A DNA stretch of 64,000 bases from Poseidonibacter antarcticus (GTDB lineage Bacteria; Campylobacterota; Campylobacteria; Campylobacterales; Arcobacteraceae): contig NZ_RCWF01000001.1 of assembly GCF_003667345.1 (NCBI RefSeq), positions 186,001-250,000 on the forward strand, written 5' to 3'. The translations under genes and the position numbers were made by a program. Positions 1,026-63,295 of this stretch are shown here, piece by piece. Every line of letters begins with the position of its first letter. Positions within the stretch are counted from its first letter, which is position 1. The notes under the pieces are model-generated. The model worked only from the letters and a program-made list of their open reading frames with translations. It was not told the DNA's origin and did no database searches.

Positions 1026-1928
1026 ATGACAAAAGAAATGACAAGTAACTTTACAACAAGAGAAGTAAAATATAAAAAACCAGAATGGTTAAGAAAAAAA
1101 TTAACACCACATACTCAAATAGAAATGGAAAATCTTTTAAAAGATGTTGGAGGACTTCATACAATATGTCAAGAAGCCAAATGTCCAAATATTAGTGAAT
1201 GTTTTGCAAATAAAAATGCAACTTTTTTAATCTTAGGGGCTATTTGTACAAGAAGATGTACATATTGTAATGTTAAAACAGGATTACCAAGTGGCGTTGA
1301 TGAAACAGAGATTCAAAAAGTTACAACTTCAGTTTTAAGACTTGGTCTTAAATTTGTAGTAATTACAAGCCCTGCTAGAGATGATTTAAAAGATGGTGGA
1401 GCTGAGCAGTTTTATAAAGTTACAAGAGATATTTTAGAAAAAGCACCTGGTACAAAAGTAGAGATTTTGATTCCTGATTTTAAAGGAAAAGAAGATAGTC
1501 TAAAAAGAGTCATTGAGTCAGGTGCAGTAATCATCGGACACAATGTCGAAACAGTTCCTAGTTTGTATAGAATAAGAAGAAATGCAAATTATGAAAGATC
1601 ATTAGAAGTTTTAAGAAAACTTAAAGAACTTGGTGGCGATAAAATAAAAACAAAAACAGCTTTAATGGTAGGACTTGGGGAAACTGAAGAAGAAATGATT
1701 CAAGTATTCAAGGATTTATTAGCAGTTGGTTGTAAATTTTTAAGTATCGGTCAATATTTAGCTCCTACAGGTGAGTATGAAAAAGTAATAGAATATGTAA
1801 AACCTGAACAGTTTAAAAGATATGAAGAATTAGCTTTGGAATTAGGTTTTGATTTTGTAAAAGCAAGCCCATACGCTAGAAGTTCATATATGGCACACGA
1901 ATATATACAAGAAGATTCAAAAATCTAG
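1026..1928 (+). CDS. lipA: Lipoyl synthase
   Basis: A 300-residue radical-SAM enzyme that inserts two sulfurs at C6 and C8 of protein-bound octanoate. It carries both cluster motifs of LipA: the auxiliary-cluster cysteines in CQEAKCPNISEC (CX4CX5C, near residues 48-59) and the radical-SAM CTRRCTYC (CX3CX2C, near 74-81). The C-terminal RSSY, which supplies the serine ligand of the auxiliary cluster, is present as ARSSYMA. Length is normal. The start has AAGGAT overlapping the stop of the preceding LipM-like gene, so the two are translationally close and probably co-transcribed. Confidence 0.97.
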   Translation: MTKEMTSNFTTREVKYKKPEWLRKKLTPHTQIEMENLLKDVGGLHTICQEAKCPNISECFANKNATFLILGAICTRRCTYCNVKTGLPSGVDETEIQKVTTSVLRLGLKFVVITSPARDDLKDGGAEQFYKVTRDILEKAPGTKVEILIPDFKGKEDSLKRVIESGAVIIGHNVETVPSLYRIRRNANYERSLEVLRKLKELGGDKIKTKTALMVGLGETEEEMIQVFKDLLAVGCKFLSIGQYLAPTGEYEKVIEYVKPEQFKRYEELALELGFDFVKASPYARSSYMAHEYIQEDSKI

Positions 1929-1942
1929 GATAAAAAATAAAT

Positions 1943-2686
1943 ATGAAAAAAATAATTAAAGTTATACTTATGATAACGATGTTATCACAACTTAGTTTTC
2001 TAAGTATAAACGCATTTGCATCAGAGCTAAAAACTGTACAAGATAAAATAAAAATTGATATAGTATCTGATGTAGTTTGCCCTTGGTGTGCTATTGGGTA
2101 CACACGATTAACACAAGCTATTAGTGAATTAAAACTAGAAGATAAAGTTGAAATTGCATGGCATCCTTTTGAGCTTAACCCTGATATGCCAAGAGTTGGG
2201 AAAAATGCGGATGAATATCTAAAAAATAAATATGGATTAAGTGAAGATAAACTACAAGAAACTAGAAACAATGTTACTAAACTTGGAAAAGAATCTGGAT
2301 TTAAATTTGATTATTTTAAAGAAATGAGAAAATTAAATACATTTGATTCTCATATATTACTAAGTTATGCGAAACAATTTGGTAAACAAACTGAATTAGA
2401 AATGCGTTTACAAGCTGCATATTTTGGTGAAAGAAAAGATATAAGTAATCGTGATGTTTTATATGCTGAATTAAAAGCAGTCGGTTTAAATGCTGATGAA
2501 GCAATGAAAAGATTAGATAATAAAGAAGCAATTAAACAAATCGAAGATGAAGAGAAATTTTGGCGAGACCAAGGAGTTTATGCTATTCCTACTATAATAT
2601 TTGATAATGAAATTGCACGAGTTGGTGCTAATAAAGTTGAAACATATAAACAAATATTAACAGAATTGATTAATAAAAGAAAATAA
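1943..2686 (+). CDS. Periplasmic DsbA-family (FrnE-like) thiol oxidoreductase
   Basis: A 247-residue thioredoxin-fold protein with a clear Sec signal peptide (basic KK, hydrophobic stretch, cleavage likely after AFA at residues 25-27) and a CPWC active site at Cys46/Cys49. The region after it (HPFELNPDMP, then IPTIIFDNE with the cis-proline) is typical of the FrnE / 2-hydroxychromene-2-carboxylate isomerase-like branch of DsbA proteins. Those are usually cytoplasmic, so the export signal is a point of note. It follows lipA by 14 bases with AGGA before the ATG and may be the last gene of that operon. The substrate is unknown. Confidence 0.85.
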   Translation: MKKIIKVILMITMLSQLSFLSINAFASELKTVQDKIKIDIVSDVVCPWCAIGYTRLTQAISELKLEDKVEIAWHPFELNPDMPRVGKNADEYLKNKYGLSEDKLQETRNNVTKLGKESGFKFDYFKEMRKLNTFDSHILLSYAKQFGKQTELEMRLQAAYFGERKDISNRDVLYAELKAVGLNADEAMKRLDNKEAIKQIEDEEKFWRDQGVYAIPTIIFDNEIARVGANKVETYKQILTELINKRK

Positions 2687-2700
2687 AAAACCATTAGGTT

Positions 2701-2732
2701 AAGTGTCCTATTTATAGGCACTTGCCTTTTTT
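2701..2732 (+). terminator. Rho-independent terminator after the lipA-dsbA-like operon
   Basis: AAGTGTCCTAT (2701-2711) pairs with ATAGGCACTT (2714-2723) with one bulged T, followed by a T run ending near 2732. It lies 15 bases after the stop at 2686. Confidence 0.75.
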
Positions 2733-2787
2733 AAAACTTAAATATGTTAGAATTCATTTTAAATAAATATATTTCAAGGTGTCTTTT

Positions 2788-3180
2788 GTGTCTATTTTTA
2801 CTTTACAAGGTTTAGCTGGCGGTTTTCTAGATGAGGATTTAGAACATTTTAACAAATTTTTTGATGATTGGTGTATCCAATTTGATAGTTATGAAGATGC
2901 TAAAGATATAGTTCAAACTCTTGAAAATGAAGAAGCCATAGATATTGTTGAAATAACACCATTGAGTTATCCAAAATATTTTTTCCCCTCTTTAAAAGGT
3001 ACTATTTACACTACACGACAAATTGAAGATAAAATCATTTGTGTTGTAGAACCATATATGGGTTCTAGTTTTAAACTTGCAATATGCGATCTTAAAACAA
3101 AAGATGTAAGACTAACAAAAACTAACTATAAAAGTATTCCAAGTATTGAAGGTGCTTTTGCTAGTTTTGGTATAAAATAA
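2788..3180 (+). CDS. Hypothetical protein, 130 aa
   Basis: I do not recognise a family. The open frame allows a GTG at 2779, but that codon overlaps the AAGG ribosome site (2776-2779); the in-frame GTG at 2788 has 8-base spacing and is the better start. The protein is soluble and acidic, with no signal or membrane segment. Its first half is rich in Asp/Glu and aromatic residues, the second has several short predicted beta-strands. The next gene starts directly after its stop, so the two are probably translated together and may work together. Confidence 0.7.
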   Translation: MSIFTLQGLAGGFLDEDLEHFNKFFDDWCIQFDSYEDAKDIVQTLENEEAIDIVEITPLSYPKYFFPSLKGTIYTTRQIEDKIICVVEPYMGSSFKLAICDLKTKDVRLTKTNYKSIPSIEGAFASFGIK

Positions 3181-3819
3181 ATGAATTTGGATAAATTAAA
3201 AGATTTAGAATCAGAGTTTTTGGCAATGTATCCAGAAGGTTTTAAAGACGAAACATTTTTCCCAAAAATACAAAAATTTAATCCCCAAAAACTAGAAGAT
3301 TTTGCAAAGAATCAACTAAAAAAAGAAAACTTCTCAAATCCAAATTTACTAATAGAAGGATTTTTTAAAACAGTTCAAAAATCTGTTATGGTTTCATTAT
3401 TTGATAAATTAAAATTAAAAGATGCAATCGCTTCATTGAACTCTTATGAAAAAGATATGCTTAGTATTGAGATATATGAGCTTTTATATGGAAATAAGAA
3501 AGATGGTTTTGAAGGTTTAGTAGAATTTTTAGCTCAATACAACTTGGCAAAATGGACTATTATAAGTGTAGCACCCTACTGTATAAATAGACATAGTGAA
3601 TACTTTATCAAACCAACTACTACAAAAATGGTAATCAAATATTTTGAACTTCAAGATTTAGTGTATAAGCCAAAACCTAGTTTTGAGTTTTACAAAAAAT
3701 ATACAAAAGCTTTGGATGAAATGAAATCAAACTTAGATGATTCACTTACCTTTGATAATGTAGCCTTTACTAGCTTTTTGAAAATAGCTATTGAGTCTGA
3801 TAAGAGTGATATTTCTTAA
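3181..3819 (+). CDS. Hypothetical protein, 212 aa
   Basis: Starts at the base following the upstream stop (TAA then ATG), a sign of translational coupling. The product is a soluble, mostly alpha-helical, lysine-rich protein without recognised motifs, signal peptide or membrane segment. Its C-terminus overlaps the convergent ATPase gene by 4 bases. The function is unknown. Confidence 0.75.
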   Translation: MNLDKLKDLESEFLAMYPEGFKDETFFPKIQKFNPQKLEDFAKNQLKKENFSNPNLLIEGFFKTVQKSVMVSLFDKLKLKDAIASLNSYEKDMLSIEIYELLYGNKKDGFEGLVEFLAQYNLAKWTIISVAPYCINRHSEYFIKPTTTKMVIKYFELQDLVYKPKPSFEFYKKYTKALDEMKSNLDDSLTFDNVAFTSFLKIAIESDKSDIS

Positions 3820-4889
3820 AAATCACCCATTAACTTGTCACTATCACTAAAATAATCTGTCAAATATTGATCTTTGATTTCTAATAAAATCTCTTTATCT
3901 TTAATAGCATCTTCATTTGATGTGATAATAGTTTGAATACCAATTCTATCTAATTGATGAATCGCCGCATAAATACCATTTTCATAAGTATTTTTATCTC
4001 CATGGAAAGGACTATCAAAAGCTACAAATTTGATAAGTTTTTTTTGTGCATAAATTTCAGCTAATGCAGAGGCAAAGATAAAAGATAAAAGCTTTTGTTG
4101 TGTAGCATCATTTAATTCTTCATTATTTCCCACATTTATAGAAAACTCTATATCATTTGAAGTATTTAAATCAATTAAAAAAGTTACCTCTTTTTCTAAT
4201 ACTATTCTTCCATATTTAGAAAATATATTTTTAAATCTATCTATAAAATAGCTGTTGATTAATTTTTTATTCTCTTCAATAACTTTTTGTAAATCACTTT
4301 GTGCAGTTTTTAAAACTGTGGGTTCAATATCTTCTTTTTTGATTAGTTCATCTAGTTCATATTTTTTTCGCAACTTTCGTCCATCAATACCTAAAAATTT
4401 TGATATAAGTGTTTTGTATTCTATTTCATGTGAAGCTTTATTTTTATTTAATATAAATACATTACTTTGATTGTTCTCATCCCTTAAAAAATATGTTATA
4501 TATGTTCTAAATTTGTTTATTGAATAATTAGCTTTATTTTCAAAAAAAGATTTGGCTACACCTATACTGCCTTTTTTATTAAAATCTTTTTCATCCAAAA
4601 GCATTGATTTTTGTTTTGTGATTTTTAATTCGATATTTTTACCACCAACAATAGGTCGTTTAATCGTAATATATCTATTTGAAGCAATTTGAAGTTCAAT
4701 ATAAAAGATATAATCTTTAAAGTGTTCATTGCCTAAAAAGTGTTTATCACCTAATAAACAAAAGTCTATTAGGTTAAAAAGACTAGTTTTCCCAACACCA
4801 TTGTTTGATGAGAGGATAAAATTTATACCTTTATCAAATTCTATGGTTTTAAAATTATCATTGTTTGCATATAATTTTGATATTTTCAT
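3816..4889 (-). CDS. SMC/ABC-type ATPase, DUF2326-like, with short coiled coil
   Basis: A 357-residue protein with an N-terminal P-loop, NNGVGKTSL (29-37), followed by IDFCLLG, and a C-terminal Walker-B-like AFDSPFHGD with a downstream helix ending TIITSNED. This split ATPase head joined by a middle helical section is the Rad50/SMC/RecN plan, but the middle is only about 100 residues. The spacing and the LIDFCLLG and DSPFHG blocks resemble DUF2326 proteins, which occur in ABC three-component defence-like systems. The first glycine of the P-loop is replaced by serine. No partner gene lies on the same strand nearby, so it looks like an orphan. AAGGAT precedes the ATG. Confidence 0.65.
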   Translation of the reverse strand: MKISKLYANNDNFKTIEFDKGINFILSSNNGVGKTSLFNLIDFCLLGDKHFLGNEHFKDYIFYIELQIASNRYITIKRPIVGGKNIELKITKQKSMLLDEKDFNKKGSIGVAKSFFENKANYSINKFRTYITYFLRDENNQSNVFILNKNKASHEIEYKTLISKFLGIDGRKLRKKYELDELIKKEDIEPTVLKTAQSDLQKVIEENKKLINSYFIDRFKNIFSKYGRIVLEKEVTFLIDLNTSNDIEFSINVGNNEELNDATQQKLLSFIFASALAEIYAQKKLIKFVAFDSPFHGDKNTYENGIYAAIHQLDRIGIQTIITSNEDAIKDKEILLEIKDQYLTDYFSDSDKLMGDF

Positions 4890-4911
4890 TTATAATCCTT
4901 GTTTTTATTAA

Positions 4912-6081
4912 TCATTTATTAGAATTTATTACTTCTGTCATATTTTTTATATTCTTTTTAAAATATGGATTCCATGTAAGTCTAGCGAAATACTTGCCCT
5001 CTTCTTGTAATCCCCAAGCAGAATACCAAAGTTCGTCATTTTGGCTATTGTAAATCTTGTCTTGACCATTTCTGAACATTTTATATTCACTATTTTTTCC
5101 ATAAAAGAAATTATCTTTTTTAAATAACACACTTAAATGAGAAAAGTTTGCAATCTTTTGATTAGGAATATAAGAAGGTAAATAAGTGATTCTGCTATCT
5201 TTAAAACCATTTTCTTTTCCAAACCAAACTAGTTGGCTTTTGGGATTTTTAAAATTTTTTGTAAAAATAGACACTATATCTTTTGATGTTATAACACTAT
5301 CATCTTCACTAATAGTTATAAATACTGGTTTTGAAAAACTTTTTTTTTCAAAGCCCTCTTCAACTCTTTTTAGAGTTTGATAATACAAATTTGAAGCATT
5401 CATAGATAAGGATTCATATCGTAAAATATTTTGACTATTGTCATTTTGAAATAACCACGTTTTGAAAAAAGACCCAATTCCTGAAAAAGGTAATAAGGTT
5501 CTTTCATCTGATGCAAAACCAGGAGAAAAAAGTAACAAGCCTGATATTTCTTCTTCATTTTCAAAAGCGTATGAAGTTACAAGATTAGCTCCTGTAGAAA
5601 ATCCACCTAGCCATAATTCATCTACTTCTTTTTCTAATAGTTTTATATGATGATTTACAAGATTTTCCCATTGTTCAAACTCAACGTTTATTAAATCAGC
5701 GGGTTTACTACCATGTCCTGTTAATAACACAGTTCTTACTAAAAATCCTTGTGAAACTAACTCTTGTGCTAAATCCTGAAAATAACCAGGAGAATCACCA
5801 AGTCCATGAACTAACAAAATTCCTTTTGATGCTTTTTGATTAATTGGTTTTTACTCAAATGGTGAATTTAGAAAAAGTTCCAATTCGTGATTTTTTGTTA
5901 AAAAAGCACGATTGTTTTCTAGCCATTTTTTATTTTCATCTATATATTTTGAAAAATCTTCTTGATTAAAGGAAGGAAGTGTTTTTGAAGGAATATATAA
6001 AGGGTTTTCATTTGTAGCGAAACAAAAGTTGAAGATTAGTATTAATAATAGGAAAAGTTTAGTCAATTTTTGTCTTTTCAT
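4912..6081 (-). pseudogene. Secreted alpha/beta hydrolase interrupted by an in-frame stop
   Basis: Two open stretches in the same frame make one protein. The first (6081-5851) is 76 codons with a signal peptide (KLFLLLILIFNFCFA) and ends at TAA (5853-5851). Reading through gives KPINQKASKG and then LLVHGLGDSPGYF, the oxyanion-loop strand of an alpha/beta hydrolase, with the nucleophile elbow GFSTG further on and a normal C-terminus ending at 4912. The downstream part alone would need the TTG at 5817, in the middle of the first core strand, and would have no export signal. I infer a nonsense mutation in a lipase/esterase-like gene of about 389 residues; a sequencing error or stop read-through remain possible. 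Its ATG abuts the TAA of the GNAT gene, so it was the second gene of that operon. Confidence 0.75.
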
Positions 6082-19862: not shown

Positions 19863-21965
19863 TTAAGCTTTTTTCTTCCAAATTGACATTTGTGAGATTG
19901 AATGTTGGTATTTTCTATTTGTTTCTTTTATTACAAAAGGAACATCTATAGTTTCTAATAGTTCAAAATCTTTTAATTCTGATTTTAAAGTATCTAATGT
20001 AGAAACTTCTTTATTATCTTTGATATATCCACCTAACCAGTTTTCTTTTGGTGTATACTCTTCTAACCACGTGTATGGACTTAAAAGTACTAATAATCCA
20101 TTGTCATTTATTCTTGAAGGAACATCTTCTAAAAACTTTTTAGGATAATATAATCTATCTATTAAATTTGAACAGAAGATTAAATCATAACCTGTATAAA
20201 TATCTTTTAAATTACAAGCATCACCTTGCATAAAAGATACATTTTTTTGAGTTTCTTCTAATCCAAAATCTTCTAAAGACACTATTTTTTCAGTAGAAAT
20301 ATCACCTTCATTTTTTATTCTAAAAGTCAAAGTATCATACTCTTTAAGTTTTACTCCAACATTTATAAAGTTTGCTGAAAAATCAATTCCAGTTACCTCA
20401 TCAAAAGTTTTTGCTAATTCAAAAGTACTTCGTCCTACTGAACAACCTAAGTCTAGTGCTTTATTTGTTTTAATATCTTTTAAATATGGTTTTAATAACT
20501 CAACTGAGTTAACACAGAAGTTTTTAACTCCAAAGTTTTCTTCACCATAGTGGAATTCGCAATATTGTGCTATTGAGTCATCTGTTTCATAAACATTGTC
20601 ATTTAATTTTGTTCTATATTCGTTATCTGATTTCACGTATCTAAATCCTGCGTGTTGGAAGAAATGCTTTCTAAAAGCATATCTAGCTTCTCTTAAGATC
20701 TCATTTCCTAAAGAAATAAAAGATCCACCTTTCATAAGTGCGTGTCTGTCATCAAATGTTGGAGTTGTAAAGTCATCATAAATAGGATGAACTTTAAAAT
20801 CATCAAATGGATACATAGGAGTAATACTCCATTGCCATACATTTCCTACAACATCATAAAACTCTTTATCATCAATTCCAAACTTGTATTTATCAACTGG
20901 TGATTGATTAAATTGTTTTAATCCAATATTTGCGTCTTTTTCTCCTGCATTTACATAATCATATAATCTATAATATTCATCCTCACTAGGAAGTCTTACT
21001 TCATATCCTAATTTTGCACTTTTATATTTACAAAAAGCCTCTGCTTCATATACATTTATATCAACAGGGTAGTTTAATGGTAAAGGTATGATTCTACTAA
21101 TTTCTCGTAAAAAATATTCTCCATTTTCTTTACTCCAAAAAACTGGATGTTTTGCTTGTGAAAAATCTAACCATTCTTTTCCCTCTTTTGAGAATAATTC
21201 AGGTTCATTATATCCACCATCTTTTACAAATTCTAAAAACTCTCCATTTGATACTAAATATTTAGAAGCTTTAAAATCTTTTATATATGATTTATGAAAT
21301 GAAAATTCATTATCCCAACCGTAAAAAATAGGATTTTCTCTATTTTTTTGTATTACAACCTCACCTGCTTTTACATCAAGTAATTCGTTTTGTGGATAAG
21401 TATCACTTTGTTCATTTACGTATTCAAAAATCTCTTCATCTATTAATCTTTTATTATCAAGTTCTCGTAAAAGTACTGATGATGTTTCTATATGAATATT
21501 CTCATGCTCAATTCCCATTAAGATAACCCACATAGGACTTTCCCAGTTAATTGGCATTGTAAACTCTATTGTATCGATTAATTCACATACTGTTTGTTTT
21601 ACTTCTTCTCTATACTCTTTTGCCTCTTTTATACTAGGCCATGCGTAATGTTTTGATTCTAAATCATCCCAAGACATTTCATCTACACCTATTGCAAAAA
21701 TTGCTTCAAAATCTTTATTTACTCTATTTGGTAAAATATTTGCAAGATTTAATTTATTAACAAAAAAAGTTGCTGTATGACCAAAATAAAAAATTAAAGG
21801 ATGTCTTAATCTATTTGGTTGTTTATATATGCATTTTTCATCTTTTAATAAATCAAATAATTTCTCATCTAATGCATACGTTTGTAAAAAATATTCTTTT
21901 ATTTCTTTTCTTTTTTCTTCTATTGTACCTGTGTTTAAATTTATACTGTTTTTTATGTAATCCAT
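19863..21965 (-). CDS. ovoA: 5-histidylcysteine sulfoxide synthase / mercaptohistidine methyltransferase (ovothiol synthase)
   Basis: 700 residues with all three OvoA parts. The N-terminal DinB-like domain has the iron-binding HX3HXE (His154, His158, Glu160) and an upstream His in RHPLIFYFGH. The formylglycine-generating-enzyme-like domain follows (about 200-470; MKGGSFISLG, FRKHFFQHAGFRYV). The C-terminal domain is a SAM methyltransferase (LDLGCSVGRSTF near 520). OvoA joins cysteine to histidine with O2 and, after lyase action, methylates the mercaptohistidine to ovothiol A, an antioxidant thiol. AAGGAAGAAA precedes the ATG. The PLP-dependent lyase step is not encoded next to it. Confidence 0.95.
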   Translation of the reverse strand: MDYIKNSINLNTGTIEEKRKEIKEYFLQTYALDEKLFDLLKDEKCIYKQPNRLRHPLIFYFGHTATFFVNKLNLANILPNRVNKDFEAIFAIGVDEMSWDDLESKHYAWPSIKEAKEYREEVKQTVCELIDTIEFTMPINWESPMWVILMGIEHENIHIETSSVLLRELDNKRLIDEEIFEYVNEQSDTYPQNELLDVKAGEVVIQKNRENPIFYGWDNEFSFHKSYIKDFKASKYLVSNGEFLEFVKDGGYNEPELFSKEGKEWLDFSQAKHPVFWSKENGEYFLREISRIIPLPLNYPVDINVYEAEAFCKYKSAKLGYEVRLPSEDEYYRLYDYVNAGEKDANIGLKQFNQSPVDKYKFGIDDKEFYDVVGNVWQWSITPMYPFDDFKVHPIYDDFTTPTFDDRHALMKGGSFISLGNEILREARYAFRKHFFQHAGFRYVKSDNEYRTKLNDNVYETDDSIAQYCEFHYGEENFGVKNFCVNSVELLKPYLKDIKTNKALDLGCSVGRSTFELAKTFDEVTGIDFSANFINVGVKLKEYDTLTFRIKNEGDISTEKIVSLEDFGLEETQKNVSFMQGDACNLKDIYTGYDLIFCSNLIDRLYYPKKFLEDVPSRINDNGLLVLLSPYTWLEEYTPKENWLGGYIKDNKEVSTLDTLKSELKDFELLETIDVPFVIKETNRKYQHSISQMSIWKKKA

Positions 21966-24819: not shown

Positions 24820-25299
24820 CTAAATCAACTTTTCTTTTGTAATTACAATTCCATCACAATCAGCATAAATATAATCACCTTCACATATTTCTACATCATC
24901 AATAGATAAAGGAATGTTAATTTGTCCATCTTGCACAGGAATATATTTTTTAGGACAAGTACCAATTGCCATTAATCCAACATTAAAATTTTTTGTATTG
25001 ATTGTATCTCTTACATAGCCATTTACAATAATTCCTGCATATTTATTATCACTTGCAAACTTCATTAAATTATCACCAACAACTGCGTAATATTGTTTAT
25101 CTACATCTACAACTACTATTTTTCCTTCACCTTTTTTATCTCTTAAAAGTGCTGCTAAATCTTTATTGTTTTTATCTAATTTAACTGTAATTACAGAACC
25201 ACTAAATTTTACATTTCCTCCATATGACTTAAAATCAGGTCCTAAAACTTCTGTTTTATCACTAAACTCATCACATAAATCTGCTGTAAAAAATTCCAT
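24820..25299 (-). CDS. rraA: RraA-family protein
   Basis: 159 residues: starts with TADLCDEF, then GKIVVVDVD, YAGIIVNGYVRDT and VGLMAIGTCPKK. This is the RraA/HMG-aldolase-like fold, with the Arg-Asp (VRD) pair that holds the metal-substrate site in the aldolases. E. coli RraA binds and restrains RNase E; related proteins cleave 4-hydroxy-4-methyl-2-oxoglutarate. Campylobacterota generally lack a classical RNase E, so the regulator role is not assured and an aldolase role is open. AAGGATTAAT precedes the ATG. Confidence 0.88.
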   Translation of the reverse strand: MEFFTADLCDEFSDKTEVLGPDFKSYGGNVKFSGSVITVKLDKNNKDLAALLRDKKGEGKIVVVDVDKQYYAVVGDNLMKFASDNKYAGIIVNGYVRDTINTKNFNVGLMAIGTCPKKYIPVQDGQINIPLSIDDVEICEGDYIYADCDGIVITKEKLI

Positions 25300-28817: not shown

Positions 28818-29225
28818 ATGAAAGTAGTTACAGGAGTTGTAGGTAACGATATACATGTAGTTGCAAATAGACTTATAGATATATCATTACAAGCACGTGG
28901 ATTTGAAGTATTTAACTTAGGTGTTAATACTTATTTAGAAGAGTTCATAGATGCAGTAATCGAAACAAATGCAGATGTTTTATTAATCTCTTCACTAAAT
29001 GGTGAAGCTGAGGGTTGGTGTAGAGAACTTAAAATCTTAAAATCAAAATATAAAAACCTTGATGGTGTTGTATTTATGTTAGGTGGAAACCTAAGTGTTG
29101 GTGAAGGAAATGAAGCAGAAATCGTTCCTAAATTCAAAAATTATGGTTTTGACTTAGTATTTCACCAAGTTGATTTAAATACAGGACTTGATAATCTAGA
29201 AAAATACTTGAAGGAGAAAAGATAA
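28818..29225 (+). CDS. glmS: Glutamate mutase (methylaspartate mutase) sigma subunit
   Basis: 135 residues, the B12-binding subunit of adenosylcobalamin-dependent glutamate mutase (also called MutS/MamA; not the glucosamine synthase of the same symbol). It aligns with the clostridial subunit: VVGNDIHVVANRLID gives the cobalt-ligating His13 and its partner Asp11, then GFEVFNLGV, SSLNGEAEG, and GGNLSVGEGN. The third position of the DxHxxG motif is Ala16 instead of Gly. The first of four genes in one run; the next starts on its last base region (1-base overlap). No cobalamin-riboswitch features are seen in the 186-base leader. Confidence 0.93.
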   Translation: MKVVTGVVGNDIHVVANRLIDISLQARGFEVFNLGVNTYLEEFIDAVIETNADVLLISSLNGEAEGWCRELKILKSKYKNLDGVVFMLGGNLSVGEGNEAEIVPKFKNYGFDLVFHQVDLNTGLDNLEKYLKEKR

Positions 29226-30592
29226 TGAGTTTACTTCAAGAAGAACGAGATATTATTATCCAAAATAAATATGCAGATAACTTTGATTTTGCAGAAATTG
29301 AAGATTTTGTAAGAAATGCTTCAAAAGATTTATTTATTTCACATAACTTTAAAAATACTAATAAAATGCTAGTACAACCTCGTGGCGGTTTTCCTACATA
29401 TCAAAAGCAGTATGATTTATATGAATTTTTTGTAAATGCAAATGTTGATGTACTTCCACTTACAATAGATTCAAATACAAGATTAAATGACTATGCAACA
29501 TCTGCTAAAATGCTAAAACTTTCAGAAGAAAATGAAGTTGATATGTTAAATGGTTATCCTCTTGTAAATCACGGTTATAAAACTACTAGAAAAATGATTA
29601 CTCATTTTAATAAGCCTGTATCACTTAGACATGGAACTCCTGATGCTAGACTTTTAATAGAAACTGCTATTGCTTCTGGAATATTTGAAATTGAAGGTGG
29701 TCCAATTACTTACCTTTTACCCTACTCTAAAAACTTTCCTCTAGATAAGGCTTTTTTATATTGGAAATATGTTGAGCGTGTTTGTGCTAATTATTCAAAA
29801 TTAAATGAACCAATTAATAGAGAATCATTTGGTCCATTAACAGCAACACTTGTTCCTCCTTGTATAACAATTGTAATTCAATTACTTGAAATGCTACTTT
29901 CACTTGAAGAAGGGGTTAAATCATTCTCTGTATCTTTTTCTCAAAGTGGTTCTATGAATCAAGATATTGTAACAGGTGCAGTTATACGAAAAATGGCTAA
30001 GCATTATGCTGAAGAAATTGGCTGTGGTGATGCATCAGTTCATTTAGTTTATCATCAATGGATGGGAGCATTCCCTACAGATAAAAACTTTGCAGAGTGT
30101 TTAATTAATACTTCAACTGTAATTGCTGCTATGGTTGGTGCTGATAAGATTATTACAAAAACTAGAGATGAAGCTTCAGGAATTCCTACAAAAGAATCAA
30201 ATGCAAAAACAGTTGCAAATACTCAATACACGCTTAGAATGCTAAATGGTTTACCAAATATAGTAGACAAAGAAGAAGAAGAAATTTTAACACAAGAAGT
30301 ACAATCTATAATGGAAGCAGTTTTCAATGACCCTGCTGATACATTATGGAGAAAAGTATTTAACTCTATAAAAAATGGAACAATTGATGTTCCTTTCTCT
30401 CCACATATTATTAATCATAATGAAGTAGTAACAGTAAGAGATAAAAATAAGAACATCAGAATTATCAAAAAAGGTAAGTTACCAATTAGTGATCGATGTT
30501 TTGAATATGAAAAAAAACAATGTGATTTAAATAAAGATGCATCATCAATAGTAAATGATATTATCCATGATATAGGAATTATGCAATGGTAG
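29225..30592 (+). CDS. glmE: Glutamate mutase (methylaspartate mutase) epsilon subunit
   Basis: 455 residues, the catalytic TIM-barrel subunit that rearranges L-glutamate to (2S,3S)-3-methylaspartate. Residues known to hold glutamate in the Clostridium cochlearium enzyme have matching counterparts: Arg53 (QPRGG), Arg86 (NTRLND), Arg135 (SLRHGTPDAR), Glu157 (EGGP), Tyr163 and Tyr167. The spacing between them is kept to within one residue, so glutamate is the likely true substrate. LNGYPLVNHGYKTTR is the family signature. AAGGAG lies before the ATG. It overlaps glmL by 7 bases. Confidence 0.95.
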   Translation: MSLLQEERDIIIQNKYADNFDFAEIEDFVRNASKDLFISHNFKNTNKMLVQPRGGFPTYQKQYDLYEFFVNANVDVLPLTIDSNTRLNDYATSAKMLKLSEENEVDMLNGYPLVNHGYKTTRKMITHFNKPVSLRHGTPDARLLIETAIASGIFEIEGGPITYLLPYSKNFPLDKAFLYWKYVERVCANYSKLNEPINRESFGPLTATLVPPCITIVIQLLEMLLSLEEGVKSFSVSFSQSGSMNQDIVTGAVIRKMAKHYAEEIGCGDASVHLVYHQWMGAFPTDKNFAECLINTSTVIAAMVGADKIITKTRDEASGIPTKESNAKTVANTQYTLRMLNGLPNIVDKEEEEILTQEVQSIMEAVFNDPADTLWRKVFNSIKNGTIDVPFSPHIINHNEVVTVRDKNKNIRIIKKGKLPISDRCFEYEKKQCDLNKDASSIVNDIIHDIGIMQW

Positions 30593-31770
30593 AAAATAAA
30601 CTTTTAATAGATATAGGAAGTACATACTTTAAAGTAGCAAGTAATAATAACGTAGAACAATATTTTAGAGATTTCAATAAAGATATTTATGATGATCTAA
30701 TATCAAAATGTTCTAATAAAATAGAAGGTTTCAAAAAAGATGAAGTATTTATTTGCTCATCTGCAAATGGTGGGTTATCTACACTTATTATTGGAGTTAC
30801 CAACTCTTTTTCACTAAAATTTGCTAAAAATATAGCTTATAATTCAGGTATTAATATTATTGATACTGTTTTATACCAAGATATAGAAAAAGCATCAGTT
30901 CCAAGTGATTTAATTGATGTTGTTATAATTGTAGGTGGAATAAATAGTGTAAAAGATATTTTCAAAAAAGATTTATTTGAATATTTAAAAAATATAAATT
31001 ATTCAAATATAGTATTTGCAGGATCTATAAAAGATGCACAATATTTAAGTAATGAACTTGAGAACTTAGTAGTAATTGATAATATAATTGACAATAAGCT
31101 TCATGTAGTTGAAGAACCTTTAAAAGAATACTTAACTAACCTTTATCAAGCTGATATTGTAGGAAAAGAAGATATTAAACATCTTTATGACTTAACATCA
31201 AACCAAATTTATTCGACTCCGTATATTGTAAATAAAACACTACCTATGATTGATTCTAAATTTGCGGCTGTTAATCCTTTTATATTAATAGATATTGGAG
31301 GAGCTACTACAGATATTCATTATTCAAAAGATTTATCTTCTGACAATATTGTAACTTCCAATGAGTATGATAGATTAGTATTTAAAAAACTTGGGGTTTT
31401 TAAATCACGAGAATCACTTATCTTTGCAGCAAAAAATAATGAATTTGTATATGAATTACTAGAACATTTAAAAGTTACAGAAAATATTTTTAATGAAAAT
31501 AATGAAAAAAGTCTTAGAATATTAATGCAACTAGCTATTTTTTTAGTGTTATATAAAGTATCTGAAGTTCATCCTTTATATATTAAGTTGAAATTAGAGC
31601 TATTAAAGTCTGTAGTTTTAACAGGTGGTATTACAAAAGTTTTAACTTTTGATGAAGTTGAAGATATTATTGCATTTTTCTATAAAAAAATATTAAATAG
31701 TGAAGTTCATCCTTCAATTGTCCTAGATTCAAATTATGATATTTGGACTCTTGGAATTACTCAAAAATAA
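30586..31770 (+). CDS. glmL: GlmL/MutL-family ATPase of glutamate mutase
   Basis: 394 residues of the actin/Hsp70-like fold. Phosphate-1 is LLIDIGSTYFK near the N-terminus, and phosphate-2 is LIDIGGATTDIHYS near residue 235. This family is always next to glutamate mutase genes and is thought to reactivate the enzyme by exchanging damaged cobalamin. ATAGGAATT precedes the ATG inside the end of glmE, showing translational coupling. Note the homologue is about 70 residues shorter than clostridial GlmL, probably at loops. Confidence 0.88.
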   Translation: MVENKLLIDIGSTYFKVASNNNVEQYFRDFNKDIYDDLISKCSNKIEGFKKDEVFICSSANGGLSTLIIGVTNSFSLKFAKNIAYNSGINIIDTVLYQDIEKASVPSDLIDVVIIVGGINSVKDIFKKDLFEYLKNINYSNIVFAGSIKDAQYLSNELENLVVIDNIIDNKLHVVEEPLKEYLTNLYQADIVGKEDIKHLYDLTSNQIYSTPYIVNKTLPMIDSKFAAVNPFILIDIGGATTDIHYSKDLSSDNIVTSNEYDRLVFKKLGVFKSRESLIFAAKNNEFVYELLEHLKVTENIFNENNEKSLRILMQLAIFLVLYKVSEVHPLYIKLKLELLKSVVLTGGITKVLTFDEVEDIIAFFYKKILNSEVHPSIVLDSNYDIWTLGITQK

Positions 31771-31780
31771 AGGAAATAAT

Positions 31781-33352
31781 ATGTCAATAAATTGTATAAG
31801 AACATTAATTGAAGAAGCTAATGTAACTCATCCAAATAAAACAGCAATAATATTTGGGCAAGAAAAATTAACTTATAGTGAACTATTTGTCAAAGTTAAT
31901 CAAATTGCTTATTATTTAGATGAATTAAACATGCCAAGTAAAAGTAGAATTGGCGTTTACTCGAATAAAGGATGTGATCAAGTAATTGCTATGCTTGCAA
32001 TTCTTTCAACTGATTATATTCTAGTTCCTTTAACAAAACTTTTAAAACCCGAACAAGTTGAGTATATAATCAATGATTGTAATATTGAGTGTATTATTAC
32101 AGATAAAGTTAAGATTAAATCAATTGAAGAGATTAAATTTACAGGTTCAATTATTTCATATGAAACTACACATAAAGATTTAGCATCTTTTAAAGAAATT
32201 TATAAATACTATAATAAACCTTATAAGTGTAATATTTCAGGTCATCAAAATGCTGCGATTACTTATTCATTTGGAATGAGTGGAAGTCCAAAAGGTATTG
32301 TAATATCACATAGAAATTTTATAGATTCAGCACGTGTTGTATCTCAATATTTACATTTAAAAGAAACTGATATAATTTCTGGATTATTAGTTTTTAATCT
32401 AGATTATGGATTAAATCAAATCTTTTGCTCATTATATAAAAGAGCAACATTAGCATTACATACTTTTGTATTACCTAATGACTTTTTTAATCATATTATC
32501 AATGATAAAATAACAGTTCTACCACTTATGCCTGTTACAATTTCTGATATGTTTGATGAGGAAGAAATTAAACTCCCTAGTAGTGAGCTTTTAAATAATG
32601 TTAGAATTATTACTTCTTCAGGTGGAAATGTTACAAATAAAATGATTAGAGATATTGAGAAATACTTCACTAATGCAAAATTCTACTCAATGCATGGACT
32701 AACAGAAGCTTTTAGATCAACATACTTAGACCCAAGTCAACTAAAAATTAGACCAGATTCAATAGGAAAAGCTATTCCTGATGTTGAACTATATGTAATC
32801 GATGAAGAAGGTAATGAATGCCCTCCAAGAGTTGTGGGTGAATTAATTCATAGAGGTGGATATATTTATCAGGGATATTGGAAGGGTAAAAAAGAAACAA
32901 AAGAAAGATTTAAATCTGCACAAATTCTAAAAAAAATTATTAATCTTGAAGGTGATTTAATTGATGAAATTGTAGTTGCAACAGGAGATTATGTATATAA
33001 AGATGAAGAAGGATATCTTTATTTTGTATCACGTGGTGATAATATGATTAAAACAAGAGGTTTTAGAGTAAGTCCTTATGAAATAGAATCAGTAGTAGCT
33101 CGAAAGATTAAAGAAATTGAACAATGTGCAGTATTTTCAATTGAAAATGAAGATATTGAAGAAGAAATAGTTTTAGTATATACTTCAAAAAATGAGTTAA
33201 GTTCAAAAGAAATTATATTTGAATTAAAAAAACATTTAGCTTCATATATGATCCCATTAAAAATAATCTATAAAAAATCTTTACCACTTATTCCTTGGAA
33301 TAAAAACAAGGTAAATATAGACGAATTAAAAAAAGAATTATTTCTAAAATAA
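31781..33352 (+). CDS. Adenylate-forming acyl/amino-acyl ligase, exosortase-A-ligase-like
   Basis: 523 residues; the ATG at 31781 has AAAGGAAATAAT before it (an earlier in-frame ATG at 31736 lies inside glmL). The AMP-ligase motifs are in order: A3 as SFGMSGSPKGIVISH, A5 as HGLTEAFRSTYL, A7 as TGDYVYKDEEGYLYF, A8 as TRGFRVSPYEIESVV, and a C-terminal NKNKV lysine. HGLTEAFRSTYL, RPDSIGKAIP and FNLDYGLNQ resemble the acyl ligases associated with exosortase A, a group related in plan to VinN, which activates 3-methylaspartate for vicenistatin. Position behind glutamate mutase suggests 3-methylaspartate as substrate. No carrier protein or decarboxylase is adjacent. Substrate is inference. Confidence 0.85.
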   Translation: MSINCIRTLIEEANVTHPNKTAIIFGQEKLTYSELFVKVNQIAYYLDELNMPSKSRIGVYSNKGCDQVIAMLAILSTDYILVPLTKLLKPEQVEYIINDCNIECIITDKVKIKSIEEIKFTGSIISYETTHKDLASFKEIYKYYNKPYKCNISGHQNAAITYSFGMSGSPKGIVISHRNFIDSARVVSQYLHLKETDIISGLLVFNLDYGLNQIFCSLYKRATLALHTFVLPNDFFNHIINDKITVLPLMPVTISDMFDEEEIKLPSSELLNNVRIITSSGGNVTNKMIRDIEKYFTNAKFYSMHGLTEAFRSTYLDPSQLKIRPDSIGKAIPDVELYVIDEEGNECPPRVVGELIHRGGYIYQGYWKGKKETKERFKSAQILKKIINLEGDLIDEIVVATGDYVYKDEEGYLYFVSRGDNMIKTRGFRVSPYEIESVVARKIKEIEQCAVFSIENEDIEEEIVLVYTSKNELSSKEIIFELKKHLASYMIPLKIIYKKSLPLIPWNKNKVNIDELKKELFLK

Positions 33353-60605: not shown

Positions 60606-61385
60606 TTATTTATTTTTAAAAATTGCTTTTCTTTTTTCAATAAAAGCATTCATACCTTCATTTTTATCTTCTAGAGAAAAAGTTGAATAAAAAGATTTCC
60701 TTTCACTTTTTAAACCTACTTGTAAACTTGATTCATAAGAGTTATCTATTGATTCTTTTATAAGTTTTACAATAGGTTGGCTCATTAAAGCGATATTTGT
60801 AGCAATTTGGATTGCATCATCAATTACATTGCCTTCTTCACTTATTTTTGCAACAAGTCCATAATCTCTAGCTTCTTGTGCATCTATCATTTCTCCTGTC
60901 AAACACATAAGCATAGCTTTTGATTTTCCAACTGCTCTTGTTAATCTCTGTGTTCCACCAATACCTGGCATTGTTCCAATTTTAACTTCAGGTTGACCAA
61001 ACTTTGCAGTTTCATCACAAATAACAATATCACATAAAAGAGATAGTTCACATCCTCCACCAAGTGCAACACCGCAAACTGCTGCAATTATTGGTTTTGA
61101 ATGATTTTCTAATCCTTTCCATTCTTTTGTAATAAATTCATTGTTATAAGCACTTGCAAAATCCAATGTAACTAGTTCTTTAATATCTGCACCAGCTGCA
61201 AATACTTTATTTCCACCTGTTAAAACAATTGCACCAATTTTTTTATCTTCTTCAAACTTTTTAATTGCATTAGAAACTTCAATTATCAAAGAAGATGATA
61301 AAGCATTCCATTCTTTAGGTCTATTTAAAGTAATTACTCCAACACAATTATTTTTTTCTTCTACTAAAATATATTTGTACTCCAT
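60606..61385 (-). CDS. Enoyl-CoA hydratase/isomerase (crotonase), possibly acryloyl-CoA hydratase (AcuK-like)
   Basis: 259 residues of the crotonase fold. The oxyanion region is FAAGADIKEL (62-71), and both hydratase glutamates are present: Glu113 in GGGCELSLL and Glu133 in GQPEVKIG. It is directly downstream of the DddY gene by 27 bases on the same strand. DMSP cleavage yields acrylate; in several bacteria it is turned to 3-hydroxypropionate by a crotonase-family hydratase (AcuK), which makes this the likely function. A fatty-acid or butyryl-CoA-pathway hydratase cannot be excluded from sequence alone. Confidence 0.9.
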   Translation of the reverse strand: MEYKYILVEEKNNCVGVITLNRPKEWNALSSSLIIEVSNAIKKFEEDKKIGAIVLTGGNKVFAAGADIKELVTLDFASAYNNEFITKEWKGLENHSKPIIAAVCGVALGGGCELSLLCDIVICDETAKFGQPEVKIGTMPGIGGTQRLTRAVGKSKAMLMCLTGEMIDAQEARDYGLVAKISEEGNVIDDAIQIATNIALMSQPIVKLIKESIDNSYESSLQVGLKSERKSFYSTFSLEDKNEGMNAFIEKRKAIFKNK

Positions 61386-61412
61386 TGTCTTCTCCTATAA
61401 TTTAAAAATATA

Positions 61413-62687
61413 TTACCATTTTGTATGTGTTAAATCACATTGAATCATTTCACCTCTATTTGCAGGAGTTCCTGGTTTATTAGCTGATTCACATAGTAAT
61501 GTTGTTCCATAGTCGTTTCTTTTGTCATGAGCATTACTTCTTGCCCAAACTGATACAATCGCTCTTTCTTCAGGTTTTGCTTCACAATTACCATCTATTT
61601 CAAATGCATGTATAGTATTTTCATGAAAGTACATTAATGGATCTTTTACATATGTACTATCATTCCACATTTTATCTTCATTTTTTTGTGATGAGTCAAA
61701 TTGTACTCTTCTCATTTTTGATGTTTCTTTAACTGTTTTTAATAAATGGGAATCTTCTTTTATTGCAAAACTTTTGAATTGTTTTGTACAAGCAGGAACT
61801 CTCATATTATAATATATTTCAGAAATAGCATGATTATGATATGGATAAAAAGTATCAACTGACTGTACTGTCATACCAACTTCTGCACCAACTTTTTCAC
61901 CATTAATCTCATCAACTCGTAATAATCCCCAATGTCCAAATATTTCAGCATATGCATATCCTCCACGAATATTAGTAAAGTTTTTATCATTACGTTTACT
62001 CTCTTGTGCATACATTGGATACCATCCAGCAGCTGCCCATAAGTTTGGTAATGCATTTGCACTTATATCATAGGGAAATACTAATGGCATTTTTACTTCA
62101 TCTCCTGTTACCATTTTATAAAAATTATCAGAGAATGTTTGTCCTAATTTTTTTACTTCTACATTTGTAACATCTTTATCAAAGAATTCTTTAAATGTTT
62201 TTCTTTTTAACCATTGAGCAACAGGTGATTTTTCTTCAATCTCTTTTCCTGGACTATAAATCCAATCAACATCTTCTCTTGCACTAAAACACACTTTAGC
62301 TTTATCTGGATTGTTTATTACTTGATAAATATTTTTTACCATATTTTTCATATCTCGTCTATCCATGATACACATTTTTTTAACACCATTTGTAGAATCA
62401 ATCATTGCTTCATCTGAATTTAAACAATCGCTTTGAGTAGGATTTGTTAATGCCTTAGCATAAGCATTTAAATAAGAAAGCGTTTCATCCCATAATATAT
62501 CCACATATTTTTGCTCATTAGCCGTATATTTAGCTGCTTTTGTTAAACATTTAAATTCCGCATTTTGAATATCATTTTTATCCAAAAAATTTGGTAGTTC
62601 ACTAGCTTGAACATTTAGCATTAAAGATAAGCCTAACAATACTGATACACCTTTTATATATTTATTTCTTAAAACTTTTTTTTTCAT
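61413..62687 (-). CDS. dddY: DMSP lyase, DddY type
   Basis: 424 residues (ATG 62687 has AAGGAG at 62693-62698 with 5-base spacing; the ATG at 62690 is too near). A signal peptide ends at about residue 28 (NVQAS), matching the periplasmic site of DddY. The cupin metal motif HxHxxxExY is complete: His284, His286, Glu290 and Tyr292 (YHNHAISEIYY), with a later His360 (NTIHAFEI). These match the zinc ligands and catalytic tyrosine of DddY. It cleaves dimethylsulfoniopropionate to dimethylsulfide and acrylate. Cys residues are plentiful. It is followed by the crotonase gene, and preceded by 263 bases without a clear gene. Confidence 0.88.
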   Translation of the reverse strand: MKKKVLRNKYIKGVSVLLGLSLMLNVQASELPNFLDKNDIQNAEFKCLTKAAKYTANEQKYVDILWDETLSYLNAYAKALTNPTQSDCLNSDEAMIDSTNGVKKMCIMDRRDMKNMVKNIYQVINNPDKAKVCFSAREDVDWIYSPGKEIEEKSPVAQWLKRKTFKEFFDKDVTNVEVKKLGQTFSDNFYKMVTGDEVKMPLVFPYDISANALPNLWAAAGWYPMYAQESKRNDKNFTNIRGGYAYAEIFGHWGLLRVDEINGEKVGAEVGMTVQSVDTFYPYHNHAISEIYYNMRVPACTKQFKSFAIKEDSHLLKTVKETSKMRRVQFDSSQKNEDKMWNDSTYVKDPLMYFHENTIHAFEIDGNCEAKPEERAIVSVWARSNAHDKRNDYGTTLLCESANKPGTPANRGEMIQCDLTHTKW

Positions 62688-62690
62688 CAT

Positions 62691-62953
62691 CTCTCCTTGA
62701 TTAAATTTGAATTAACAAAACTTTAGCTTATTCATAATATAAAAACAAGAACTTACTTAAAAGAAAGGTAGTACCTAAAAAGATACTATAGATGACTTAT
62801 CTAAAGGTTTAAAGAATACAAATTTAATCAAAAGAAGAGTCAAAAATATTGGGAAAACTTATATTAAAAGAGATTTAAAACTAATTTTGGATACCTTCCA
62901 AAAGAAGCAAAATCTTCTTATGAAAAGTATAATTAATATATAGTATTACATAG
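62691..62953. other. Gene-free stretch between dddY and cupin gene
   Basis: The plus strand from about 62781 keeps an open frame of ~50 codons (GLKNTNLIKRRVKNIGK, then LILDTFQKKQNLLM), but no start codon or ribosome site fits and the reverse strand is empty. It may be the end of a broken gene; I recognise no family. The upstream part probably holds the dddY promoter. Confidence 0.35.
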
Positions 62954-63295
62954 TTAAAGTTTTAGTACTCCTTTAACTCTATTTACAGTGTCTTTTTTAG
63001 ATAAAGTAAGGCGTACTATTGAGTCAGCATTTGCTTTTAAATCATGTTTTACATTTGCTTCTAAAACTACAATATCACCTTTTATTAGATTATAAATATT
63101 ACCATCAACACCAAAATCAATTTCACCTTCAAATATTTCTACACTAATAGGATATCCAGCTTTGTGCTCTTTCATTATTTGGTCTTTTTTAAAAACTATT
63201 CTTATCTCTTTTGATATTTCTGTTTCCATTAAAGGTGTAATTAATACTTTATTTTCATTGTATTCTAAATTTTCTAATATATTTGTTTTTTTCAT
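62954..63295 (-). CDS. Small cupin-domain protein, 113 aa
   Basis: A single cupin barrel: AGYPISVEIFEGEIDF, GDIVVLEANVKHDLKA is motif 2 with its His. Motif 1 lacks the usual HxH (KEHKAGYPIS keeps one His), so metal binding may be weak. Single-domain cupins of this sort can be sensors or isomerases. AAAAAGGAAATAAT precedes the ATG. It is on the same strand as dddY but 263 bases upstream of it, so a shared transcript is doubtful. Confidence 0.8.
   Translation of the reverse strand: MKKTNILENLEYNENKVLITPLMETEISKEIRIVFKKDQIMKEHKAGYPISVEIFEGEIDFGVDGNIYNLIKGDIVVLEANVKHDLKANADSIVRLTLSKKDTVNRVKGVLKL

Follow-up and report, generated by a model that had tools for sequence, protein, structure and literature searches.

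Positions 28818 to 33352 of the window, by which the whole stretch of 64,000 nucleotides analyzed here is meant, hold a tight operon made up of mutS, mutE, and glmL together with a gene for an AMP-forming ligase. A fifth gene, which encodes an RraA-like protein and is counted as a member of the same cassette on the basis of its co-occurrence with mutE, lies outside this span, to which the original prediction was confined. The five features are as follows.

24820 to 25299, minus strand: RraA-like protein (PF03737 family), fifth cassette member
28818 to 29225, plus strand: glutamate (methylaspartate) mutase subunit S (mutS), B12-binding (PF02310; NF002612 above cut-off)
29225 to 30592, plus strand: glutamate mutase subunit E (mutE), catalytic (PF06368, 5.9e-117; aligned to GlmE, 6h9e/1cb7)
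30586 to 31770, plus strand: GlmL/MutL-type accessory (reactivation) protein (PF13941, 6e-29; NF040745 below cut-off)
31781 to 33352, plus strand: AMP-forming ligase, predicted to adenylate 3-methylaspartate (PF00501; VinN-like pocket)

The start of mutE overlaps the end of mutS by 1 base, glmL overlaps mutE by 7 bases, and the ligase start lies 10 bases past the GlmL stop (were the alternative ATG at 31736 used, the ligase would overlap GlmL). Such tight packing is common to the relatives, as all three intergenic gaps are shorter than 100 bases in 85 of 88 complete loci. Subunit S passes the cut-off of NF002612 (162.9 bits, cut-off 110) and does not pass TIGR01501, while subunit E passes PF06368 (391 bits, cut-off 26.6) and falls below TIGR01503 (375.1 bits, cut-off 390.1). 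The nearest named family of the ligase is TIGR03098, which is matched below its curated cut-off (422.6 versus 592.35 bits). The coordinates, the overlaps, the 10-base gap, and the family matches all agree with the four-gene mutase and ligase operon that had been predicted from the sequence. A search of nine gammaproteobacterial loci for Rfam riboswitches gave no match.

The side chains R66, R100, R149, E171, Y177, and Y181, which we take from the GlmE structure to be the glutamate contacts of the clostridial enzyme, are all present in 95 of 95 subunit E relatives, and K326 and E330 are likewise kept in every one of the 95. Alignment to 6h9e thus confirms the original prediction that subunit E retains the six glutamate-binding residues. 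The B12 motif of subunit S reads DxHxxA in place of the usual DxHxxG in 89 of 89 relatives, with the Asp and His retained. S, E, and GlmL are supported as a complete glutamate mutase set, for which mutase activity is predicted.

Anaerobic fermentation, the haloarchaeal methylaspartate cycle, and actinomycete antibiotics are the settings in which glutamate mutase is known. The fermentation partner, methylaspartate ammonia-lyase, had been noted as absent from the locus, and this absence extends to the remainder of the genome: the enzyme has no match in the window's genome or in any of 58 mutE-positive Campylobacterales genomes, and it scores over cut-off in one of ten gammaproteobacterial carriers.

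Two further loci lie within the window. Positions 60606 to 63295 (minus strand) carry the DMSP lyase DddY (780 bits, above cut-off) by an enoyl-CoA hydratase and a cupin-like gene, making up a DMSP cleavage locus. Positions 19863 to 21965 (minus strand) encode the ovothiol synthase OvoA, both domains of which score above cut-off, and similar genes are found near the cassette in several Arcobacteraceae.

Distribution of the cassette

Among 399 Campylobacterales genomes, mutE is present in 91 and the ligase is also present in 91. The two genes occur together in 90 genomes, with one genome having mutE only and one having the ligase only, and a pairing of this extent excludes a chance association. 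The S, E, GlmL, and ligase genes are kept as a unit across about seven families in which the neighboring genes differ (26 loci besides the window were inspected, at 20 kb each where the contig was long enough).

The distribution was also followed at the species level (one genome per species, GTDB r220), which gave 204 relatives, the best 80 of which were examined as loci. Among these best 80 of 204, 48 loci were assigned outside Campylobacterota, nearly all of them to marine gammaproteobacteria; the carriers outside the phylum are Colwellia, Thalassotalea, Neptuniibacter, HTCC2143, HTCC2148, Haliea, Granulosicoccaceae, Vibrio hannami, and a few MAGs. Arcobacter and Sulfurimonas types are also found among the best 80. 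The cassette is not special to Campylobacterota. In the ligase tree, Campylobacterota and gammaproteobacteria each form largely one cluster. The gammaproteobacterial ligases are 69–75% identical to that of Arcobacter, as compared to 56–66% for several other Campylobacterota families, and this closer kinship across phyla than within one fits a spread of the cassette by horizontal transfer between the two classes. Consistent with the claim that the arrangement had not been described in Campylobacterota, no earlier description of this gene set was found in the literature searched.

The ligase pocket and its probable substrate

The pocket of the ligase closely resembles that of VinN. Residues D208, Y209, T278, S280, and R312 correspond to D230, F231, T297, S299, and R331 in VinN, and D208, Y209, S280, and R312 are invariant in 107 of 107 ligase relatives. 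In VinN, the side chain of D230 contacts the beta-amino group, while F231 and S299 lie opposite the shortened loop that carries R331 (PMC11253843). The cassette ligase shares this short loop and has a Phe at the position of VinN K330. A 176-residue segment spanning the pocket region finds VinN (3WV4, 3WVN) as its top match among 177,635 PDB sequences, bearing out the earlier expectation of a VinN-like pocket that includes the Asp for the beta-amino group. The AlphaFold model of the ligase (pLDDT 85.8) confirms the fold only, and the whole-fold search carried out with it returned superfamily-level matches that do not single out VinN and are uninformative on specificity.

The proposed relationship to the exosortase-A-associated ligases stands in part. 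The HGLTEAFRSTYL and RPDSIGKAIP blocks are present as described; however, the score below the TIGR03098 cut-off indicates that the cassette ligase is not an equivalog of that family. Among thirteen further family members that were read, the ligase of a Sphingomonas XrtA system shows identical pocket letters (D, Y, T, S, F, R), with no mutase beside it. Consequently, the pocket residues do not prove 3-methylaspartate as the substrate. They indicate a dicarboxylic amino acid, which the enzyme would take as a beta-amino acid, without singling out 3-methylaspartate, and it is the operon partner, the mutase, that points to 3-methylaspartate specifically. Taken in this way, context and residues together give good support to mutase-made 3-methylaspartate as the predicted substrate. 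The pair Y209/S280 had been considered as a mark that separates the cassette from the exosortase ligases, based on four Rhizobium/Burkholderia-type members that carry Ala and Thr, and was rejected because the XrtA ligase in the wider sample has the same letters. Plasmid sequences contain no close relative of the cassette ligase, the best matches being at most about 36% identical.

The Sphingomonas XrtA locus merits separate mention, as its ligase with VinN-like head-group residues lies beside a PLP decarboxylase and an ACP (1903–5708 of the locus read). These residues and partners suggest that chemistry like that of VinN, VinO, and VinL may be at work in the XrtA set, with a dicarboxylic amino acid as the substrate.

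The acyl acceptor and the RraA-like partner

VinN accepts 3-methylaspartate made by a mutase, and the vicenistatin logic requires both a carrier protein and a decarboxylase (PMC11284099). In vin-like Streptomyces loci the ligase, the type III PLP enzyme, GlmS, and GlmE are consecutive. It had been proposed that the same logic operates here, wherein the ligase would load 3-methylaspartate on a dedicated free carrier, followed by PLP-dependent decarboxylation and transfer to an assembly line encoded elsewhere. The VinN-like pocket, the pairing with the mutase, and the vin-like clusters are in keeping with this proposal, but the carrier and tailoring genes that it places elsewhere were not found. 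Nine of the 36 mutE-positive genomes surveyed, six of these nine being closed, contain only one carrier protein gene, which is presumably that of fatty acid synthesis. The two extra ACPs in the window's genome both belong to an aryl-polyene-like cluster with ketosynthases and an aromatic ammonia-lyase. The search of this genome for a VinO-type (type III PLP) decarboxylase gave only LysA (511 bits), the sole TIGR03099-like gene of note, and an arginine-decarboxylase-like gene. Furthermore, no carrier or decarboxylase genes of this kind recur around the cassette in 27 plus 80 loci. The survey of 36 genomes rejects a dedicated carrier protein as a general requirement, the dedicated-carrier vicenistatin logic is largely refuted in that role, and its operation here is considered improbable. 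Since several genomes have no dedicated carrier protein and the acceptor must exist in every genome that has the cassette, the candidates for taking up the acyl group are CoA, the housekeeping ACP, and an amine.

Direct transfer to an amine is a sub-case of the route preferred here, in which the ligase would join 3-methylaspartate to a free amine or to ammonia to form a carrier-free small metabolite. ANL enzymes that synthesize amide bonds, McbA among them, are known (PMC10804368) and appear in the fold matches of the ligase model, and genomes that lack a dedicated carrier protein would be accommodated. A Methylobacter plasmid (NZ_CP091425.1, 2862–7221 of the locus read) also couples glutamate mutase with an AsnA-like enzyme. 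On the other side, no kinship in sequence between the ligase and known amide synthetases came to light, and direct amide formation is regarded as possible but rather unlikely.

In the Methylobacter locus, an asparagine synthetase A-like gene comes first, then a gene for a B12-binding protein and an unnamed gene, with glutamate mutase E in divergent orientation; the set is possibly a 3-methylasparagine route. On a plasmid of Streptomyces sp. NBC_01003 (5456–11472 of the locus read), glutamate mutase S and E adjoin aspartate kinase and aspartate-semialdehyde dehydrogenase, a set that would be another way of activating the same carboxylate.

With CoA as the acceptor, the product could also enter the methylaspartate cycle. 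Loss of ammonia from 3-methylaspartyl-CoA would give mesaconyl-CoA, and its hydration followed by cleavage would yield glyoxylate and propionyl-CoA. In favor of this route, 3-methylaspartyl-4-CoA is the amino counterpart of beta-methylmalyl-CoA. Also in its favor, another locus of the window's genome (2203–9633 of that locus) contains a cluster, common in Arcobacteraceae, in which a mesaconyl-CoA hydratase-like protein is encoded together with CitE-type lyases, a class I fumarase, and a fusion of a ligase with CitE. The hydratase, however, is found in 13 mutase-free Arcobacteraceae and in just 6 of 64 mutase-positive genomes outside that family; it follows the family and not the mutase, and is thus not coupled to the cassette. 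This co-occurrence test rejects the mesaconyl-CoA route as a common function and leaves it very improbable.

The RraA-like gene follows the mutase. It is present in 89 of 91 mutE-positive and 12 of 308 mutE-negative Campylobacterales genomes, and within Arcobacteraceae in 27 of 27 and 5 of 20, respectively, although the Fisher test on these counts ignores kinship among the genomes. Unsupervised clustering of the genes around the Campylobacterales loci identifies it as the sole further gene that recurs across six families. In 46 of the 53 loci having both genes, it lies at most 400 bases from mutS in the opposite orientation. In the window, a pair of genes intervenes between it and mutS, while in most relatives RraA and mutS are divergent and adjacent.

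The sequence of the cassette RraA sets it apart as a subfamily, marked by near-invariant N93, Y95, and C115. It has R97-D98 in 76 of 76 sequences where the E. coli RraA reads R97-Q98, and at E. coli position 101 it has Gln, Asn, or another residue where the active TtRraA has an acid (Glu), which makes its catalytic activity unsure. No RNase E/G was found in the window's genome; consequently, RraA cannot regulate RNase E there, and this role was ruled out for that genome. RraA relatives in which the motif is complete are presumed class II pyruvate aldolases, a class of enzyme that decarboxylates oxaloacetate (PMC5065237). An AspC-type aminotransferase (461 bits to a solved aspartate aminotransferase of this type) adjoins RraA convergently in 21 of the 48 loci outside Campylobacterota, with outer flanks that vary.

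The aminotransferase, the RraA fold, and the precedent for oxaloacetate decarboxylation would suit a supply of isoleucine, in which transamination of 3-methylaspartate gives 3-methyloxaloacetate, which RraA would decarboxylate to 2-oxobutyrate, with the ligase as a side branch. This scheme leaves the ligase, the most tightly linked gene, unexplained. The genome also encodes a threonine deaminase (493 bits), so that a new isoleucine route would be redundant, and the scheme is given little credence here.

Proposed pathway and comparison with known systems

The conservation of this cassette, almost always without the fermentation enzyme and nearly always with RraA, points to an undescribed metabolic pathway, which is probably a self-contained route from glutamate through 3-methylaspartate to its adenylate. 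First, glutamate mutase (S and E, with GlmL keeping it active) would rearrange L-glutamate to (2S,3S)-3-methylaspartate, in an equilibrium that favors glutamate. Next, the ligase would adenylate the carboxylate adjoining the methyl-bearing carbon, a regiochemistry that, like the substrate, we infer. The substrate would be read as a beta-amino acid in the manner of VinN, with Asp208 serving the amino group and Arg312 the alpha-carboxylate, while Tyr209 and Ser280 would face the short loop. Adenylation would pull the mutase forward, substituting for the ammonia-lyase, and CoA or the housekeeping ACP may then receive the acyl group, unless it is transferred straight to an amine. RraA, which has the class II aldolase/oxaloacetate-decarboxylase fold, may work on the keto-acid side, probably on 3-methyloxaloacetate. 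Where the aspartate aminotransferase is in the island, as in many gammaproteobacteria, it would act together with RraA on the corresponding keto acid, whether as a step of the route or for removal of this keto acid.

More tentatively, the self-contained cassette may have been exchanged between Campylobacterota and marine gammaproteobacteria, may make a 3-methylaspartate conjugate with no need of a dedicated carrier protein, and may have recruited a distinct RraA subfamily as a metabolic enzyme of that route. Such a conjugate might be a metabolite, as an amide or a CoA ester, or even a modification of a protein by analogy with EF-P beta-lysylation, which combines a mutase with an adenylating ligase. 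Both the partnership with RraA and the occurrence in two classes are newly recognized here. If the proposal is correct, the cassette represents an undescribed B12-dependent pathway that couples glutamate mutase to ATP-driven activation and is conserved in roughly 200 species-level genomes. A member of the RraA family would gain a metabolic context apart from the control of RNase E, and a large uncharacterized ligase family (TIGR03098 and its kin) would gain a specific and testable substrate.

The closest known system is the starter-unit module of vicenistatin (VinH, VinI, VinN, VinL, and VinO). Both systems pair an AMP ligase with the S and E subunits of glutamate mutase and have no ammonia-lyase, and the two ligases have in common the head-group residues (Asp, an aromatic residue, Ser, and Arg) and the short loop. 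In contrast to the vicenistatin module, the cassette has no dedicated carrier, type III PLP decarboxylase, or adjoining PKS; it adds GlmL, RraA, and often AspC, and a Phe replaces K330. Clostridial glutamate fermentation by the methylaspartate pathway shares relatives of S, E, and GlmL and the six glutamate-binding residues, whereas the cassette has a ligase where the ammonia-lyase would be. The XrtA-associated ligases of TIGR03098 are the nearest family, sharing the HGLTEAFRSTYL and RPDSIGKAIP blocks and, in at least one XrtA member, the same pocket letters; the cassette ligase differs in scoring below the family cut-off and in having glutamate mutase beside it rather than an exosortase, decarboxylase, and ACP. 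Finally, the cassette RraA shares with the RraA/HMG-CHA aldolases (PF03737) the fold family and the R97-D98 portion of the catalytic motif, and is distinguished from them by Gln or Asn at the next acid position and by the near-fixed N93, Y95, and C115.
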